Shown here: positions 16,563 to 63,595 of the stretch, piece after piece | How the letters are laid out: the number at the start of each line of letters is the position of its first letter | Numbering within the stretch: position 1 is the stretch's first letter | Source: Thalassospira sp. MCCC 1A03138 | Lineage (GTDB): Bacteria; Pseudomonadota; Alphaproteobacteria; Rhodospirillales; Thalassospiraceae | Direction of reading: 5' to 3' | NCBI RefSeq assembly: GCF_002115785.1 | Contig: NZ_JFJY01000005.1 | Coordinates: 124,001 to 188,000, forward strand | DNA: 64,000 nt | The notes under the pieces: generated by a model | What the model saw: the letters and a program-made list of their open reading frames with translations, nothing else | Database searches by the model: none | Told to the model about the DNA's origin: nothing | Translations under genes and position numbers: made by a program

Positions 16563-18245
16563 TTATACGGCCCTGACGTCGTTCAGGAAGCCGTTCACAT
16601 GGGATCTCAGTTCGTCATTGGCGGCGGCAAGACGGCCAACACAATCAAGCTGACCATGTGAAAGATCACCGCTTTCCGTTGTTGCCTCGGCCACGTTTTT
16701 CACCGCGTTCGAAATGGCGACGTTGCCATTGGCAGCCCCTTCGACACTCCGTGAAATTTCTTCGGTTGCAGCGCCCTGCTCTTCCACCGCACTGGCAACA
16801 ACCGACATCAGTTCATCAATTTGATGAATGGTTTCGGCAAAGCCGCGAACGGCTTCGGCGGCGGCACCTGTTTCACCCTGCATTTCGGTAATTTTTGCAG
16901 TGATCTGTTCGGTTGCCTTCACCGTCTGGGCAGCAAGGTTTTTGACCTCCCCCGCCACCACCGCAAAGCCCTTGCCCGCATCGCCAGCACGTGCCGATTC
17001 AATTGTCGCGTTAAGTGCCAGGAGGTTTGTCTGATCAGCAATGTCGCTGATCAGACTGACAACTTCACCAACACTTTGCGCCGCCTCGTTCAGCATTTCG
17101 ACACGCTGATTGGTGCGTTCGGTTTCCGCAACGGCATGCTGGGTGATTTCGGTAACACGTGCGATCTGCGATGCTATTTCAGAAATCGACGCGGAAAGCT
17201 GCGCGGTTGCCGATGCAACGGTTTCAATGTCTCCCGATGATTCTTCGGCCTGCTCAGCCACACTTTTCGCATCCTGATTGGCGCGCACCGAATGTGACGA
17301 AAGCGTTTCCGATGCACTGCGGACTTCGTCCAATGCGACATTAACAGCCGAAAGAACTTCCTGGATCTTATGATCGAAACCGGCGGTCAGCGTGCCCATG
17401 CGTTTGCTGCGCTCAATCTGGCGTTCGGCTTCGATCCGCTCCTGCTCGGCCATTCGGGCCCGTTCACGGGCGTTCTCACGGAAGACTTCAAGCGATTTCG
17501 CCATTGCACCAACTTCGTCGGCACGTTTCATATCAAGGATTTCGATATCCAGATTACCGGAAGCCAGACTTCCCATCGCATCGGTCATCTTGCGGATCGG
17601 CGTTGCAATCAGACGCGACAGCGTACCGCCAAACAAAGCAGCCATGGCAATCAGCAAAACAACGCCAATGCCCAGCGTCGATTGGAACAGTATCATTGCC
17701 CGTTCGACACGGTTCTCAACATCAAGGTTCATCTCGTCGATGTTTTTCGCCAGCTCCTGCGCAATCATCGATACGCTATCGGACAATTCGCGCGGTTCGC
17801 CGGATGCCTCAATCGCGCGGGCGTGGTTGACCGTCAGATAATGGCGCATCAGTTTCGCCTGTTCGCTCGCGATTTCTTCCCAACGATCAATTGCACCATC
17901 CATCTGTTCAATCAGATCGGCAATTGTCGGGTTGATGGTGGCGTAAGATTTCAGAACATCGGTACGTATATCGATCTCGGCCAACGATTTTTCGTAGCTT
18001 TCAAGCCCGGTACGATCACCGGTTGTCAGGAAATAGACCAGTTCCTGCCGCGCCATAAGATACGAGCGGTCCAGATTGCGATAGTCGCGTTCGAAATCGG
18101 CCAGATAATCACGCTGATCATTGGCGGATTTGACCTGGAAGGTCGCAAACATCCCGGCGCCCGCAACCATCAGAATGACCACTATCATCACTGCAAAGCA
18201 GGTCGTCAGCTTGGCCGGTATGGAAAGATTTTTAAAGAAGTTCAT
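16563..18245 (-). CDS. Methyl-accepting chemotaxis protein
   Basis: 560 residues. TM1 lies near residues 10-32 (LTTCFAVMIVVILMVAGAGMF), followed by a ~155-residue periplasmic four-helix-bundle-like domain, TM2 around 188-212 (LGIGVVLLIAMAALFGG), a HAMP domain (LIATPIRKMTDAMGSLASGNLDIEI), and a signalling domain with the CheA/CheW hairpin tip DQTNLLALNATIESARAGDAGKGFAVVA. No C-terminal CheR pentapeptide is seen. It lies 12 bp downstream of the gene for a soluble periplasmic Cache-like protein, so the two are very probably one operon and may act together in sensing. Confidence 0.93.
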   Translation of the reverse strand: MNFFKNLSIPAKLTTCFAVMIVVILMVAGAGMFATFQVKSANDQRDYLADFERDYRNLDRSYLMARQELVYFLTTGDRTGLESYEKSLAEIDIRTDVLKSYATINPTIADLIEQMDGAIDRWEEIASEQAKLMRHYLTVNHARAIEASGEPRELSDSVSMIAQELAKNIDEMNLDVENRVERAMILFQSTLGIGVVLLIAMAALFGGTLSRLIATPIRKMTDAMGSLASGNLDIEILDMKRADEVGAMAKSLEVFRENARERARMAEQERIEAERQIERSKRMGTLTAGFDHKIQEVLSAVNVALDEVRSASETLSSHSVRANQDAKSVAEQAEESSGDIETVASATAQLSASISEIASQIARVTEITQHAVAETERTNQRVEMLNEAAQSVGEVVSLISDIADQTNLLALNATIESARAGDAGKGFAVVAGEVKNLAAQTVKATEQITAKITEMQGETGAAAEAVRGFAETIHQIDELMSVVASAVEEQGAATEEISRSVEGAANGNVAISNAVKNVAEATTESGDLSHGQLDCVGRLAAANDELRSHVNGFLNDVRAV

Positions 18246-18257
18246 TGTCCGTCTCCC

Positions 18258-18875
18258 TTACAACTTCTGACGACGCGCGAGTTCATTAAGATTGACCTCG
18301 ATCGTGACGGCACCGATTGGCGTCCCTTGCTGATCGCTCATGGTCATATTGAGCTGTGAACGCCAGGTATCAGAATCTTCATCATATTCGGCTTCATCAA
18401 TGAAGACGGCGTTGGCTCCGTTGGGGAAGGTGTTTTTGAACTTGGCCTCGTCCCCCTGCCAGAAATCGGAAGTGATCGAGCTTTGCCCGACATTAAGGCC
18501 GGCAGCGTCCATGACAAATATTTCGGCAAACAGACCACCGGAACGCGCCTGGATCTGTGTCAGATAGCTGGAAAGAGGATTGGTCAAAATGGCTGCGACC
18601 AGCGGCTGATCCTCGGCTTCGCGTTCCGCCACCCATTGTTTGTCGGCAGCATCGATCTGATCCTGCGTCATTCCTTTGCGCAAACGGTTCTGTGACGAGA
18701 TCGAAAGTTCAACCACAGGGTTCGCAAGCCATTCCCTTACACCACGGATGGTGTCATCCGTAATCAACTGATCAGGCGCGCCAGGCAAATCCGACTTGGC
18801 ATTCGCAGCAGTAATGCCAAACGAAGTGCCAATCATCAGACCCGTCACCATAACAAGGTGTTTTGTCACTTTCAT
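18258..18875 (-). CDS. Periplasmic PDC/Cache-like sensory domain protein
   Basis: 205 residues with a signal peptide cut near residue 27 (ITAANA|KS) and no other membrane segment. The core (residues ~90-200) resembles a stand-alone Cache/PDC domain: SGGLFAEIFVMDAAGLNVGQS, TSDFWQGDEAKFKNTFPNG, YDEDSDTWRSQLNMTMSD and GTPIGAVTIEVNLNELAR. Such domains normally sit inside receptors. Here it is a free periplasmic protein encoded just ahead of a chemoreceptor whose own sensor is a helical bundle, so it may be its ligand-binding partner (inference). AGGA is 7 nt before the ATG. Confidence 0.78.
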   Translation of the reverse strand: MKVTKHLVMVTGLMIGTSFGITAANAKSDLPGAPDQLITDDTIRGVREWLANPVVELSISSQNRLRKGMTQDQIDAADKQWVAEREAEDQPLVAAILTNPLSSYLTQIQARSGGLFAEIFVMDAAGLNVGQSSITSDFWQGDEAKFKNTFPNGANAVFIDEAEYDEDSDTWRSQLNMTMSDQQGTPIGAVTIEVNLNELARRQKL

Positions 18876-18953: not shown

Positions 18954-19071
18954 CTACTTTTAGGCGCAAGGGGATATATACAGACACGCATACGCCATCC
19001 GATATCCCCATATGGGGATGCCAGTTAAGCCATTGGAGGGGCTGAAAGATAATAAAGGGGGGGCAATAAAG

Positions 19072-19097
19072 AAAAAAGCGGCGGGAAAACCGCCGCT
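19072..19097 (-). terminator. Rho-independent terminator of the candidate small RNA
   Basis: Perfect 8-bp all but AT-free stem (19097-19090 with 19084-19077), 5-nt loop and six Ts on the minus strand. No protein gene ends nearby on that strand: the next one upstream ends at 19389. This is the main reason to postulate a short transcript. Confidence 0.85.
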
Positions 19098-19135
19098 GAG
19101 TTTGGTTGGGACACGAGCAAACTGCAGAAGATTAC

Positions 19136-19174
19136 GTTGTTCCAGGCGCAAGATGCGCCCCTGCAAAGAACAAC
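19136..19174 (-). other. Long nested hairpin within the candidate small RNA
   Basis: The outer arms GTTGTTC (19136-19142) and GAACAAC (19168-19174) are perfectly complementary. The inner arms GGCGCA/TGCGCC (19145-19150, 19154-19159) are also perfect, joined by a CAG/CTG extension with a small bulge. Such a 39-nt structure is unlikely by chance in non-coding DNA. Confidence 0.65.
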
Positions 19175-19189
19175 TGTCCGATCACATAT

Positions 19190-19206
19190 ATGCATAGGGT
19201 GTGCCA
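19190..19206 (-). promoter_or_regulatory. Sigma-54 (-24/-12) promoter
   Basis: On the minus strand TGGCAC-ACCCT-ATGCA: the invariant GG and GC have the correct spacing, and only one base of the TTGCW -12 element (T to A) and the optional G at position 7 differ from TGGCACG-N4-TTGCW. A TGCCA-N5-TGGCA inverted repeat (19202-19216) overlaps the -24 box. Confidence 0.62.
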
Positions 19207-19289
19207 GTTTTTGGCATCATCTTGAAATCGCAGAATTTGGCCGATTATTGATTGAAAAAATCTGATAAGACAACTACTTCAAAATTAAT

Positions 19290-19354
19290 TTGCAATTTGC
19301 GACATCAATATTTGCAAAATGCAACAATCATTCTTTGCATTTTGCAAAACGCAA
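19290..19354. promoter_or_regulatory. Phased TTGCA-N3-TGCAA enhancer cluster (LuxO-type)
   Basis: Two perfect sites, TTGCAAAATGCAA (19312-19324) and TTGCATTTTGCAA (19335-19347), plus two with one mismatch, 19290-19302 and 19342-19354 (overlapping the second). Centres at 19296, 19318 and 19341 are 22-23 bp apart, about two helical turns. They are about 115-160 bp upstream of the inferred sigma-54 start, the usual position for an enhancer-binding protein. The pattern equals the TTGCAWWWTGCAA consensus reported for LuxO sites at Vibrio qrr promoters. Confidence 0.6.
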
Positions 19355-19388: not shown

Positions 19389-19943
19389 TCAACCGGCGTT
19401 GCGGCGTGCCGGCTTACGCTTTTTCCGGTTTCCGAAATTCAGCAAAGCAGGAGCGTTTTCAATGATTTCCTGAAGAATTTCCTTGGCAATCTCAAGGTCA
19501 TCCTTGGCACCTTCATCAAGGTGGCTGATATATCGCGGATTGGAAATCATGCGCTCGGCTTCATAAAGCGTGCGAAGCTCGCTTTGAAACATCTCGCGCG
19601 CACCAAGCGGCAGAACCGGCTTGGCACTCATCACAAAGAAGAATTTCAGGCTGGTTTTGATCACGATGCGTAGCATCAGAATCTGCAATTTATGGAATTG
19701 CTCTTCGAGCTCGTCCTTTTTCGGATGCTTTTCAAGCTTTGCAAGGCGGTCCGTAATCACCAGCGAAAGCGCTTTGAAATTATCGACTTCCTCGCGGAAA
19801 GGCCGGTAACCTGTCACTTCCGTTGTATCGACCGTCTTCTCGATCACATCTGCCAAAGCCACAAGCCTGCGCGCCTGCGCTTCAAGTTTGGACAGAAACT
19901 TCTCGACTTCATCCCGATATTTTCGCTGTGTCGCCTGGTTCAT
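19389..19943 (-). CDS. Uncharacterised alpha-helical cytoplasmic protein
   Basis: 184 residues from the ATG at 19943 (MNQATQRKYRDEVEKFL). No signal peptide or membrane segment is evident. Heptad-rich helices with coiled-coil potential span residues ~5-90 and ~135-165. A hydrophobic centre (LQILMLRIVIKTSLKFFFVM) is flanked by MSAKPVLPLGAREMFQSELR, and the C-terminal tail is strongly basic (NRKKRKPARRNAG), which could bind nucleic acid. I do not recognise a family. It is 101 bp downstream of clpA on the same strand. Confidence 0.7.
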   Translation of the reverse strand: MNQATQRKYRDEVEKFLSKLEAQARRLVALADVIEKTVDTTEVTGYRPFREEVDNFKALSLVITDRLAKLEKHPKKDELEEQFHKLQILMLRIVIKTSLKFFFVMSAKPVLPLGAREMFQSELRTLYEAERMISNPRYISHLDEGAKDDLEIAKEILQEIIENAPALLNFGNRKKRKPARRNAG

Positions 19944-20044
19944 TGTTTTTATATGCCACCAAAAGCAATTGCCCGAAACAACTGTTCCGGGCAATCACAA
20001 TAACGCGCCAAAACTTAATGACAAGGTAATCGATCACAGGGCAA

Positions 20045-62077: not shown

Positions 62078-63595
62078 TTAGAGCCCCGCGCGCAAAAGTG
62101 GCTCCACCTGATCCCTATACACAGCAAGCTTACCGTCACTGAAATAGCCCACGGCACATTCAAGAACAGTATCGCGCTGCAATTCCTTGGCTTTGGCCTC
62201 GCCATCGCCTTCGGCGTCCAACGGGTTATCATTTGTTGCAGATTTGCCGATACGGGTAACCTCTATATCGCGTTCGCAACTTGCTGCATCCATTGATGCA
62301 AGAACCTTGCGCGGATCGCGGCGACGCGGCGGCAAGGCGTGCTCAAGGTCAACCTCCCGCTCGAACTCTTCGGCATCAGGAAGTTTGACTTCGATATCCG
62401 GGACAACACCATTGCCCTGCACGATGTGGTTTTCCGGCGTCGTGTAATAACCAGTCGTGATTTTAAGACCACCGCCAGAAGTCAGCGGCATGATGCGTTG
62501 CATTGAACCTTTACCAAACGACTGTTCGCCGATGATGACACCTCGCCCGTTTTCACGCAGGGCGGCCGCCATCAATTCGGCGCCCGACGCCGATCCACGG
62601 TCAAGCAGAATAGCCATGGGCGCCCCGTCAAAATAATCGCTGCTGTCTGCTTCATAGCTGCGCAATTTACGTTCGCCCCGCCCTTCGGTCGCAACAATCA
62701 GCCCCTTGCTCAGGAATTGATCGGCAATATCGGCGGCACTATCAAGCAATCCACCCGGGTTGCGTCGCAAATCAACGATTACGCCCCGTGGTGACCCAAT
62801 CCTGTTTTCCAGCATTTCAAGATATTCGCGTGTCTGATCCAATGTGCTGGCATCAAAACGCGACACACGGATGTAGGCCAAATCGTTATCGATGATTGAT
62901 GCGGTAACCGACGGCACCTCGATCCGTGCACGTTTCACGGTGACGTCAAAGTTTTCCTGCTTGCGCTGTATCGACAGTGTCACCGGGTCGCCGATGCGAC
63001 CGCGCATAAGACGGACAGCCTCGGCAATGGGCTCGCCCTTCATTTCATGACCATCAATATGCGTGATCCGGTCATTGGGTTGCAGGCCAGCCCGTGCGGC
63101 AGGTGTATCGTCAATCGGTGACACGATACGGATCAGCTTGTCCTCATCCTGCGAAATCACGATGCCAACACCGGCAAAACTTCCCTCAGTACTTTCCTGC
63201 AAACGGCGGAACATATCGTCGGTCATATATGCGCTATGCGGGTCCAGGTCGTGCAGGCTTTCGTCGAGTACTGCACCAACGATGCCGTCTGGCGTGTGAT
63301 CATCAGTTTCAAGATTTGGCAAACTGGCAATCGCGCGCTCGACAAACGCCGGGCGATCAATATTTTCCACATAGGTATCGGAGAGAACCTGAACCGCTTC
63401 GACGAACAGTTTATCGGCGCGATCATATTGGTCGCTGGTCGCACTTTCGTCGACATAGTCGCGGTAGGCATCCAGAAACTGCTGTTCATCATCGCTTGGC
63501 CAAACCGGACCGGCACACGCCACCAACCTCGTTCCGGCAAATGAAATCACCACCGCAAGCAAAATTGGTAATATTCCTTTGCGCAGCACCGCCAT
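62078..63595 (-). CDS. S41-family C-terminal processing protease
   Basis: 505 residues. N-terminal hydrophobic export signal (LPILLAVVISFAGTRLVAC); an LVAC lipobox is possible but an Arg interrupts it. A PDZ domain spans ~115-210 (GSFAGVGIVISQDEDKLIRIVSPIDDTPAARAGLQPNDRITHIDGHEM). The S41 catalytic region has RGSASGAELMAAALRENGRGVIIGEQSFGKGSMQ, giving the Ser and Lys of the dyad. A Cys-bearing C-terminal domain (~420-505) is extra. Tsp/CtpA proteases cut periplasmic or membrane proteins at the C terminus. Confidence 0.93.
   Translation of the reverse strand: MAVLRKGILPILLAVVISFAGTRLVACAGPVWPSDDEQQFLDAYRDYVDESATSDQYDRADKLFVEAVQVLSDTYVENIDRPAFVERAIASLPNLETDDHTPDGIVGAVLDESLHDLDPHSAYMTDDMFRRLQESTEGSFAGVGIVISQDEDKLIRIVSPIDDTPAARAGLQPNDRITHIDGHEMKGEPIAEAVRLMRGRIGDPVTLSIQRKQENFDVTVKRARIEVPSVTASIIDNDLAYIRVSRFDASTLDQTREYLEMLENRIGSPRGVIVDLRRNPGGLLDSAADIADQFLSKGLIVATEGRGERKLRSYEADSSDYFDGAPMAILLDRGSASGAELMAAALRENGRGVIIGEQSFGKGSMQRIMPLTSGGGLKITTGYYTTPENHIVQGNGVVPDIEVKLPDAEEFEREVDLEHALPPRRRDPRKVLASMDAASCERDIEVTRIGKSATNDNPLDAEGDGEAKAKELQRDTVLECAVGYFSDGKLAVYRDQVEPLLRAGL

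Follow-up and report, generated by a model that had tools for sequence, protein, structure and literature searches.

The Qrr system of the Vibrionaceae combines a sigma-54 promoter, upstream LuxO-type boxes, a short terminated RNA, an activator of the LuxO family and Hfq, and the alphaproteobacterial genome described here shares each of these features, the short terminated RNA being a predicted one. The published LuxO site of Vibrio is TTGCAWWWTGCAA, and of 21 Vibrionaceae taxa with LuxO, 20 have a Qrr gene opposite luxO, as given in PMC10162802. The same source describes SypG of V. fischeri, a LuxO paralogue that also activates qrr1, and among the rows listed there SypG and LuxO of the same Vibrio are 47-48% identical. 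Alanine scanning of V. cholerae LuxO has identified eleven critical residues in the helix-turn-helix (HTH) (PMC11407668), and a glycine in the linker, described as conserved in all LuxO proteins, is part of the autoinhibition of the activator (PMC4878744). A survey from 2004 recorded LuxO homologues in many bacteria and orthologues of LuxP and LuxU only in Vibrio (PMC524169).

Among the literature matches listed, control of a small RNA (sRNA) by LuxO appears to be known only from Vibrio and its family. Literature searches found no paper that pairs Thalassospira with LuxO, the titles listed included no report of LuxO- or sigma-54-dependent sRNAs in alphaproteobacteria, and in a Caulobacter sRNA paper (PMC12559287) LuxO is present solely in the reference list.

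A terminated unit behind LuxO-type boxes in Thalassospira

The window, a stretch of 64,000 nucleotides of the genome of Thalassospira sp. MCCC 1A03138 that was analysed as a whole, contains on its minus strand, read from 19420 to 19060, four TTGCA-N3-TGCAA-type boxes, a -24/-12 promoter and a 111-nt terminated unit, in this order (Table 1). An initial annotation of the window had reported that these signals share one direction, and all elements were confirmed on the minus strand. The observation of an sRNA-type unit behind a sigma-54 promoter and boxes is, at the level of the sequence, confirmed.

Table 1 Features of the predicted sRNA locus, its neighbours and the LuxO-like activator gene.
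Feature	Position	Strand	Remarks
Methyl-accepting chemotaxis protein gene	16563..18245	-	CHASE3 and HAMP domains
Downstream gene	18258..18875	-	205 aa, small exported sensor-like protein (by eye)
Predicted sRNA, 111 nt	19069..19179	-	5' GGACAGUUGUUCU... through terminator tail; predicted start 19179-19180
Intrinsic terminator	19072..19097	-	8-bp GC-rich stem and T6
Accessible single-stranded stretch CAACCAAACUC	19098..19108	-	candidate pairing region; unpaired probability 0.82-0.99
Stem-loop of the RNA	19136..19174	-	8 bp, 6-nt bulge, 7 bp, 3-nt loop
Sigma-54 promoter CTGGCACACCCTATGC	19192..19207	-	GG-N10-GC spacing
LuxO-type box TCGCAAATTGCAA	19290..19302	-	one mismatch
LuxO-type box TTGCATTTTGCAA	19312..19324	-	perfect; matches published LuxO site TTGCAWWWTGCAA
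LuxO-type box TTGCAAAATGCAA	19335..19347	-	perfect
LuxO-type box TTGCGTTTTGCAA	19342..19354	-	one mismatch; overlaps the 19335..19347 box
Upstream gene	19389..19994	-	clpA and clpS beyond
LuxO-like activator gene	G000:C1:97689-99290	-	best NCBIfam model LuxO

The promoter had been placed at 19190-19206 with a single base of the -12 box off. The promoter was confirmed in the sequence; it occupies 19207-19192 and shows two departures from the -24/-12 consensus. The pattern YTGGCAY-N6-TGC[AT]T is present in all 29 Thalassospira genomes, which answers the proposed check on conservation of the -24/-12 bases in close relatives, and the distance from the -12 GC to the GGACAG of the RNA start is exactly 12 nt in every one of them. 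With this distance fixed, the conserved block begins at the expected start of a sigma-54 transcript.

The repeats reported upstream resolve into two perfect boxes and two with one mismatch between 19290 and 19354. TTGCA-N3-TGCAA sites occur six times in the genome, and only the two in front of the sRNA match the published LuxO site; three of the remaining four lack a sigma-54-like site up to 350 nt away, and the fourth, on contig C12, is 329 nt from a TGGCA-N7-TGC. In 29/29 genomes of the genus the promoter is preceded by one or more boxes with no more than one mismatch. Two or more such boxes, overlaps counted, are found in 25 and a single box in four, and a perfect box is present in 20 promoters and absent from nine. 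In 150 simulated 64-kb sequences (first-order Markov model), a perfect box never occurred within 180 nt upstream of TGGCA-N7-TGC (0/150), the means being 4.5 such promoter-like sites and 0.19 perfect boxes per sequence, compared with nine sites and two perfect boxes in the window, where one site has both boxes upstream.

The unit of about 110 nt in the initial annotation corresponds to a 111-nt unit with terminator, 19179-19069, found in 29/29 genomes of the genus. Its terminator is as annotated, with an 8-bp stem at 19077-19097 and T6 at 19072-19077, the first T closing the stem. The hairpin at 19136-19174 is likewise real but is not the long perfect one described, since its 8-bp and 7-bp stems are separated by a 6-nt one-sided bulge; it is enclosed by a longer closing stem (19179-19175 with 19113-19109). 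The predicted minus-strand fold of the sRNA has an energy of -41.6 kcal/mol (z-score -3.68), equalled by none of 200 shuffles. In the aligned sequences the CAACCAAA part of the accessible stretch at 19098-19108 does not vary, and an A is inserted behind the stretch in six of the 21. A competing fold, in which UGCAG pairs with CUGCA, is the minimum in two of the six species' RNAs folded (G009 and G025). Among 34 consensus pairs, both partners vary in three, of which two belong to the 19136-19174 hairpin, and four are broken, each in one of 21 sequences; one stem pair of the terminator changes from G-C to A-U on both sides in 5/21. Covariation is sparse, as the RNA shows so little variation.

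A 301-bp query from the locus matched all 29 genomes of the genus, that of the window included. Across the 28 relatives, the RNA is on average 94% identical to the copy in the window (range 80-100%), compared with 50% for the 75 nt that precede the promoter and 43% for the 120 nt that follow the terminator. The exact 21-mer of the 5' end of the RNA was found in 22 named genome records, 21 from Thalassospira and one a metagenome-assembled genome (MAG) of the Rhodospirillales, a count from which the window's own record may be missing. A covariance model built from 21 sequences recognised 29/29 Thalassospira genomes at 112-142 bits; in the rest of the order it gave matches of 28-31 bits in 2/288 genomes. 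A covariance search in related genomes had been among the proposed checks. The 31-bit match outside the genus (L076) was rejected as chance, being by eye a terminator behind a flagellin-like gene. Within the 317 genomes of the order, the sRNA would appear to be confined to Thalassospira.

All loci with sufficient flank preserve the order clpS, clpA, upstream gene, sRNA, sensor-like gene, methyl-accepting chemotaxis protein gene. The upstream gene stands beside the sRNA in 21 of 22 named loci (the remaining one has 93 nt of flank), and the sensor-like gene adjoins it in 19 (the other three have at most 316 nt). Neither product has a Pfam match up to E = 1e-5. In the window a sigma-70-like promoter with a 10/12 match precedes the sensor-like gene at 18953-18926, and matches this good before the gene were found in only three of the 29 genomes.

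The LuxO-family activator and the comparison with Qrr

A LuxO homologue had been named as something to look for, and the genome encodes one, with a LuxO model match of 655 bits and a place in a clade with support 100/100. RpoN and Hfq are both encoded as well. The protein contains a receiver domain (REC) with the phospho-acceptor Asp, a sigma-54 AAA+ domain with GAFTGA and a Fis-type HTH, and is one of 12 full sigma-54 activators of the genome. The next NCBIfam model, NtrC, reaches 395 bits, and the 655 bits lie below the equivalog cut-off of 800 for LuxO. Its best match among PDB chains is LuxO of V. angustum (483 bits, compared with 326 for the next protein), with 58% identity over the receiver and AAA+ domains (5ep0). 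In a maximum-likelihood tree of 35 proteins, 28 LuxO-like rows, including LuxO of V. angustum and Aeromonas, form one clade with support 100/100, and seven other activators of the genome fall outside it; this tree is midpoint-rooted, has long branches flagged, gives no order inside the clade and has no SypG row.

The HTH shares 17 of 22 residues with that of Vibrio LuxO and 9 of the 11 critical residues, compared with at most 10/22 and 7/11 in the remaining 11 activators of the genome. The HTH of Thalassospira is not specially Vibrio-like, as other alphaproteobacterial and Aeromonas LuxO-like proteins reach 11-17/22 in this comparison, from which one truncated protein (L192) is omitted. Proteins similar to LuxO (E of 1e-100 or better) were found in 96 of the 317 genomes and 36 of the 115 genera of the order, and in 29/29 Thalassospira.

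At the position of the linker glycine (Gly141), all 12 Thalassospira LuxO proteins aligned (L054:9189-10790, minus strand, and relatives) have Asp, and Gly is found in 20 of 23 other proteins of the clade, one of the 23 being a second LuxO-like protein from the same genus. This second, more distant protein (G024:C2:254776-255957, L208) was seen in one genome. Because of the linker Asp, control of the activator may differ from that in Vibrio, and autoinhibition of LuxO may be weaker in Thalassospira. On the protein comparisons, there is good support for placing the activator in the LuxO family; one hallmark residue differs, and the score falls short of the NCBIfam cut-off.

Divergent from luxO and beside it are genes for a STAS protein and for a protein with HATPase, REC and SpoIIE-phosphatase domains (Pfam; L054:10948-13323), and both also adjoin luxO in 5/5 other Thalassospira examined. 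A hybrid kinase with an Hpt domain is encoded nearby; in the five other Thalassospira regions, at least 659 of its residues are matched in three, 115 in one and none in one. No luxU was noticed among the neighbours of luxO when these were read by inspection. The V. fischeri pair SypA and SypE has the same architecture, a STAS protein with a serine kinase-REC-phosphatase (PMC3610818), and what is shared with SypA/SypE/SypG of that species is a LuxO-type activator beside STAS and kinase-REC-phosphatase proteins.

The likeness to the qrr genes that the initial annotation drew is borne out by boxes matching TTGCAWWWTGCAA and by the sigma-54 promoter in 29/29 genomes. Its description of the unit as a parallel and not a copy also came through the tests made: the RNA has no Rfam match, and the genus as a whole conserves it together with its promoter and boxes. 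The search of Rfam with the sRNA returned no match at the gathering score, and Qrr was absent from the 19 sub-threshold matches up to E = 10, on the assumption that Rfam includes a Qrr model. For mmgR (RF00519), an alphaproteobacterial sRNA that is likewise short, the match was sub-threshold, with 17 bits where the gathering score is 41. Unlike Vibrionaceae Qrr, the Thalassospira RNA matches no Rfam family at the gathering score, only a single gene was found, and sRNA and luxO lie far apart, on contigs C29 and C1, respectively. On the activator side the likeness goes beyond a parallel, since activator and site are both of the LuxO family and the RNA alone shows no relation. The unit is likely to work like a Qrr gene, and on this evidence it is not classed as a Qrr, because family match and gene place were both tested and neither agreed.

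Box-plus-promoter units elsewhere in the order

The 317 genomes of the order were searched for a box followed after 55-115 nt by TGGCA-N7-TGC. The pattern was found in 20 genomes, 11 of Thalassospira and nine others, and a reversed control gave 0/317. Outside Thalassospira it is present in 6 of 67 LuxO-bearing genomes and in 3 of 221 without LuxO (one-sided Fisher p = 0.006, a rough value as the genomes are related). Four of the nine, G142, G143, G187 and G188, share with Vibrio an AT-only box middle, which G109, G133, G203, G221 and G231 lack. Strict tandem boxes were found in 12/317 genomes, nine of them Thalassospira; two of the three others have no sigma-54 site (one lies at a contig end) and G143 has one.

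One or two of the nine units outside Thalassospira look like sRNAs. In the LuxO-bearing genome G231 (L225, about 1582-1800), the box TTGCAGACTGCAA and the sigma-54 promoter TGGCACGCTCGATGC precede a unit about 189 nt long that closes with a T9 terminator and within which no open reading frame of 60 codons starts. This unit is a candidate for a second sRNA, unrelated to that of Thalassospira. In G203 (L223, minus strand, from about 1515 down), which also bears LuxO, a box and sigma-54 promoter are followed by a terminated unit of about 170 nt and, by eye, a chemotaxis-receptor gene; a long stop-free frame crosses the unit, and the order of the parts resembles that in Thalassospira. In G221 (L224) the box and sigma-54 promoter lie directly before what is by eye a STAS-like gene, a hint that LuxO might control a partner-switching protein there, and in G188 (L222) a receiver-kinase gene, also read by eye, follows.

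Predicted mode of action and implications

We consider it probable that the unit is an sRNA gene driven by the LuxO-family activator with sigma-54, that its product is an Hfq-type pairing RNA and that its input is a phosphorelay. The phosphorylated activator, encoded on contig C1, would bind the box cluster about 110-175 nt upstream and drive sigma-54 RNA polymerase at the -24/-12 promoter, yielding a stable RNA, about 111 nt long, with its 3' end at the terminator. Together with Hfq, this RNA would most likely pair in trans with mRNAs, and the invariant unpaired stretch that precedes the terminator may be the region used. A phosphorelay would probably supply the input, given the hybrid kinase with Hpt and the SypA/SypE-like partner-switching pair near luxO. 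The gene, its promoter and boxes, the family of the activator and the conservation are read from the sequence; transcription, LuxO binding, dependence on Hfq and the mode of action are inferred.

Possible targets were sought with the complement of the invariant stretch, TTTGGTTGGG, which occurs three times in the genome of the window, once as the sRNA gene itself. Among the genus matches listed there are 30 TTTGGTTGGG loci, of which one (L173) is the sRNA gene and 12 are near a possible start codon; nine of the 30 make up four groups, each of them one site that two or three genomes have in common. The largest group (L151, L155 and L166, the genome of the window included) was rejected, as its site is by eye inside a coding sequence, and no widely shared site at a translation start was found among the 30. 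A duplex scan of 74 gene starts, covering the window and L054 and ignoring accessibility, ranked an S41 peptidase gene (62081-63589) at the top with a z-score of -3.9. Twelve regions of relatives were fetched, one of which had no match, and in the 11 readable ones the pairing site is full only in the nearest relative and partial in two more; this gene was also rejected. Neither search, within its limited scope, brought up a conserved target. Of ten short words taken from the RNA, none had a fitting match in the main text and tables of a study of 18-35-nt RNAs by RNA-seq in nine Thalassospira species (PMC6413936), published in 2019, which deposited its reads (PRJNA505357). These two negative results count against the proposed reading, as do the linker Asp, the LuxO score below the cut-off, the thin covariation and the promoters that have no perfect box or a single box.

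Instead of being a free sRNA, the unit could be a leader, transcribed from the sigma-54 promoter and carrying an attenuator, for the sensor-like and chemotaxis-receptor genes downstream. In the named loci with enough flank, both genes come after the unit and have its orientation, and the terminated unit of the LuxO-bearing G203 precedes, by eye, a chemotaxis-receptor gene. This is made unlikely by the strong terminator that closes the unit, by the drop to a mean identity of 43% behind it compared with the conservation of nearly all 111 nt, and, for the genome of the window, by the sigma-70-like promoter in front of the downstream gene itself, though a match this good was found in only three of the 29 genomes. 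There is little chance, too, that a different activator of the NtrC family works at the boxes in place of the LuxO homologue. A genome with 12 full sigma-54 activators offers alternatives, and the action of SypG on qrr1 in V. fischeri (PMC10162802) gives a precedent, but an HTH of the LuxO type is found only in the LuxO homologue (17/22 residues, compared with no more than 10/22 in the other 11).

As to the product, CrcZ and CsrB-type RNAs are protein sponges, and near-invariance along most of the RNA together with the failure to find a target would suit an RNA that binds a protein instead of pairing with mRNAs. No repeated protein-binding motif was seen by eye, and the RNA, U-rich at its end, has a shape that suits an sRNA of the Hfq type, so a sponge seems improbable. 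That the conserved element is a short translated frame and not an RNA is hardly credible. TTG-started frames of 63 and 68 codons do begin within the unit, but the 111 nt of the window copy contain no ATG, and the single-base insertions before the terminator in 6/21 aligned sequences shift the frame.

If the Hfq-type sRNA under LuxO-family control is real, a LuxO-type operator before an unrelated RNA shows that an activator and its site can persist while the RNA changes, and Thalassospira becomes a tractable case for asking what signal feeds LuxO outside Vibrio. A broader reading is that, throughout the Alphaproteobacteria, activators of the LuxO family use this one kind of operator to drive sRNAs that are unrelated and specific to each lineage, activator and site being kept and the RNA exchanged. 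Thalassospira would have one such RNA, and G231 and G203 provide further candidates. We hold this only tentatively, and think it rather doubtful, because the boxes of G231 and G203 are without the AT-only middle, their middle three bases differing from those of Vibrio. If it is true, the LuxO-sRNA switch regarded as that of "Vibrio" would be an old device of the Proteobacteria whose RNA outputs can be replaced.
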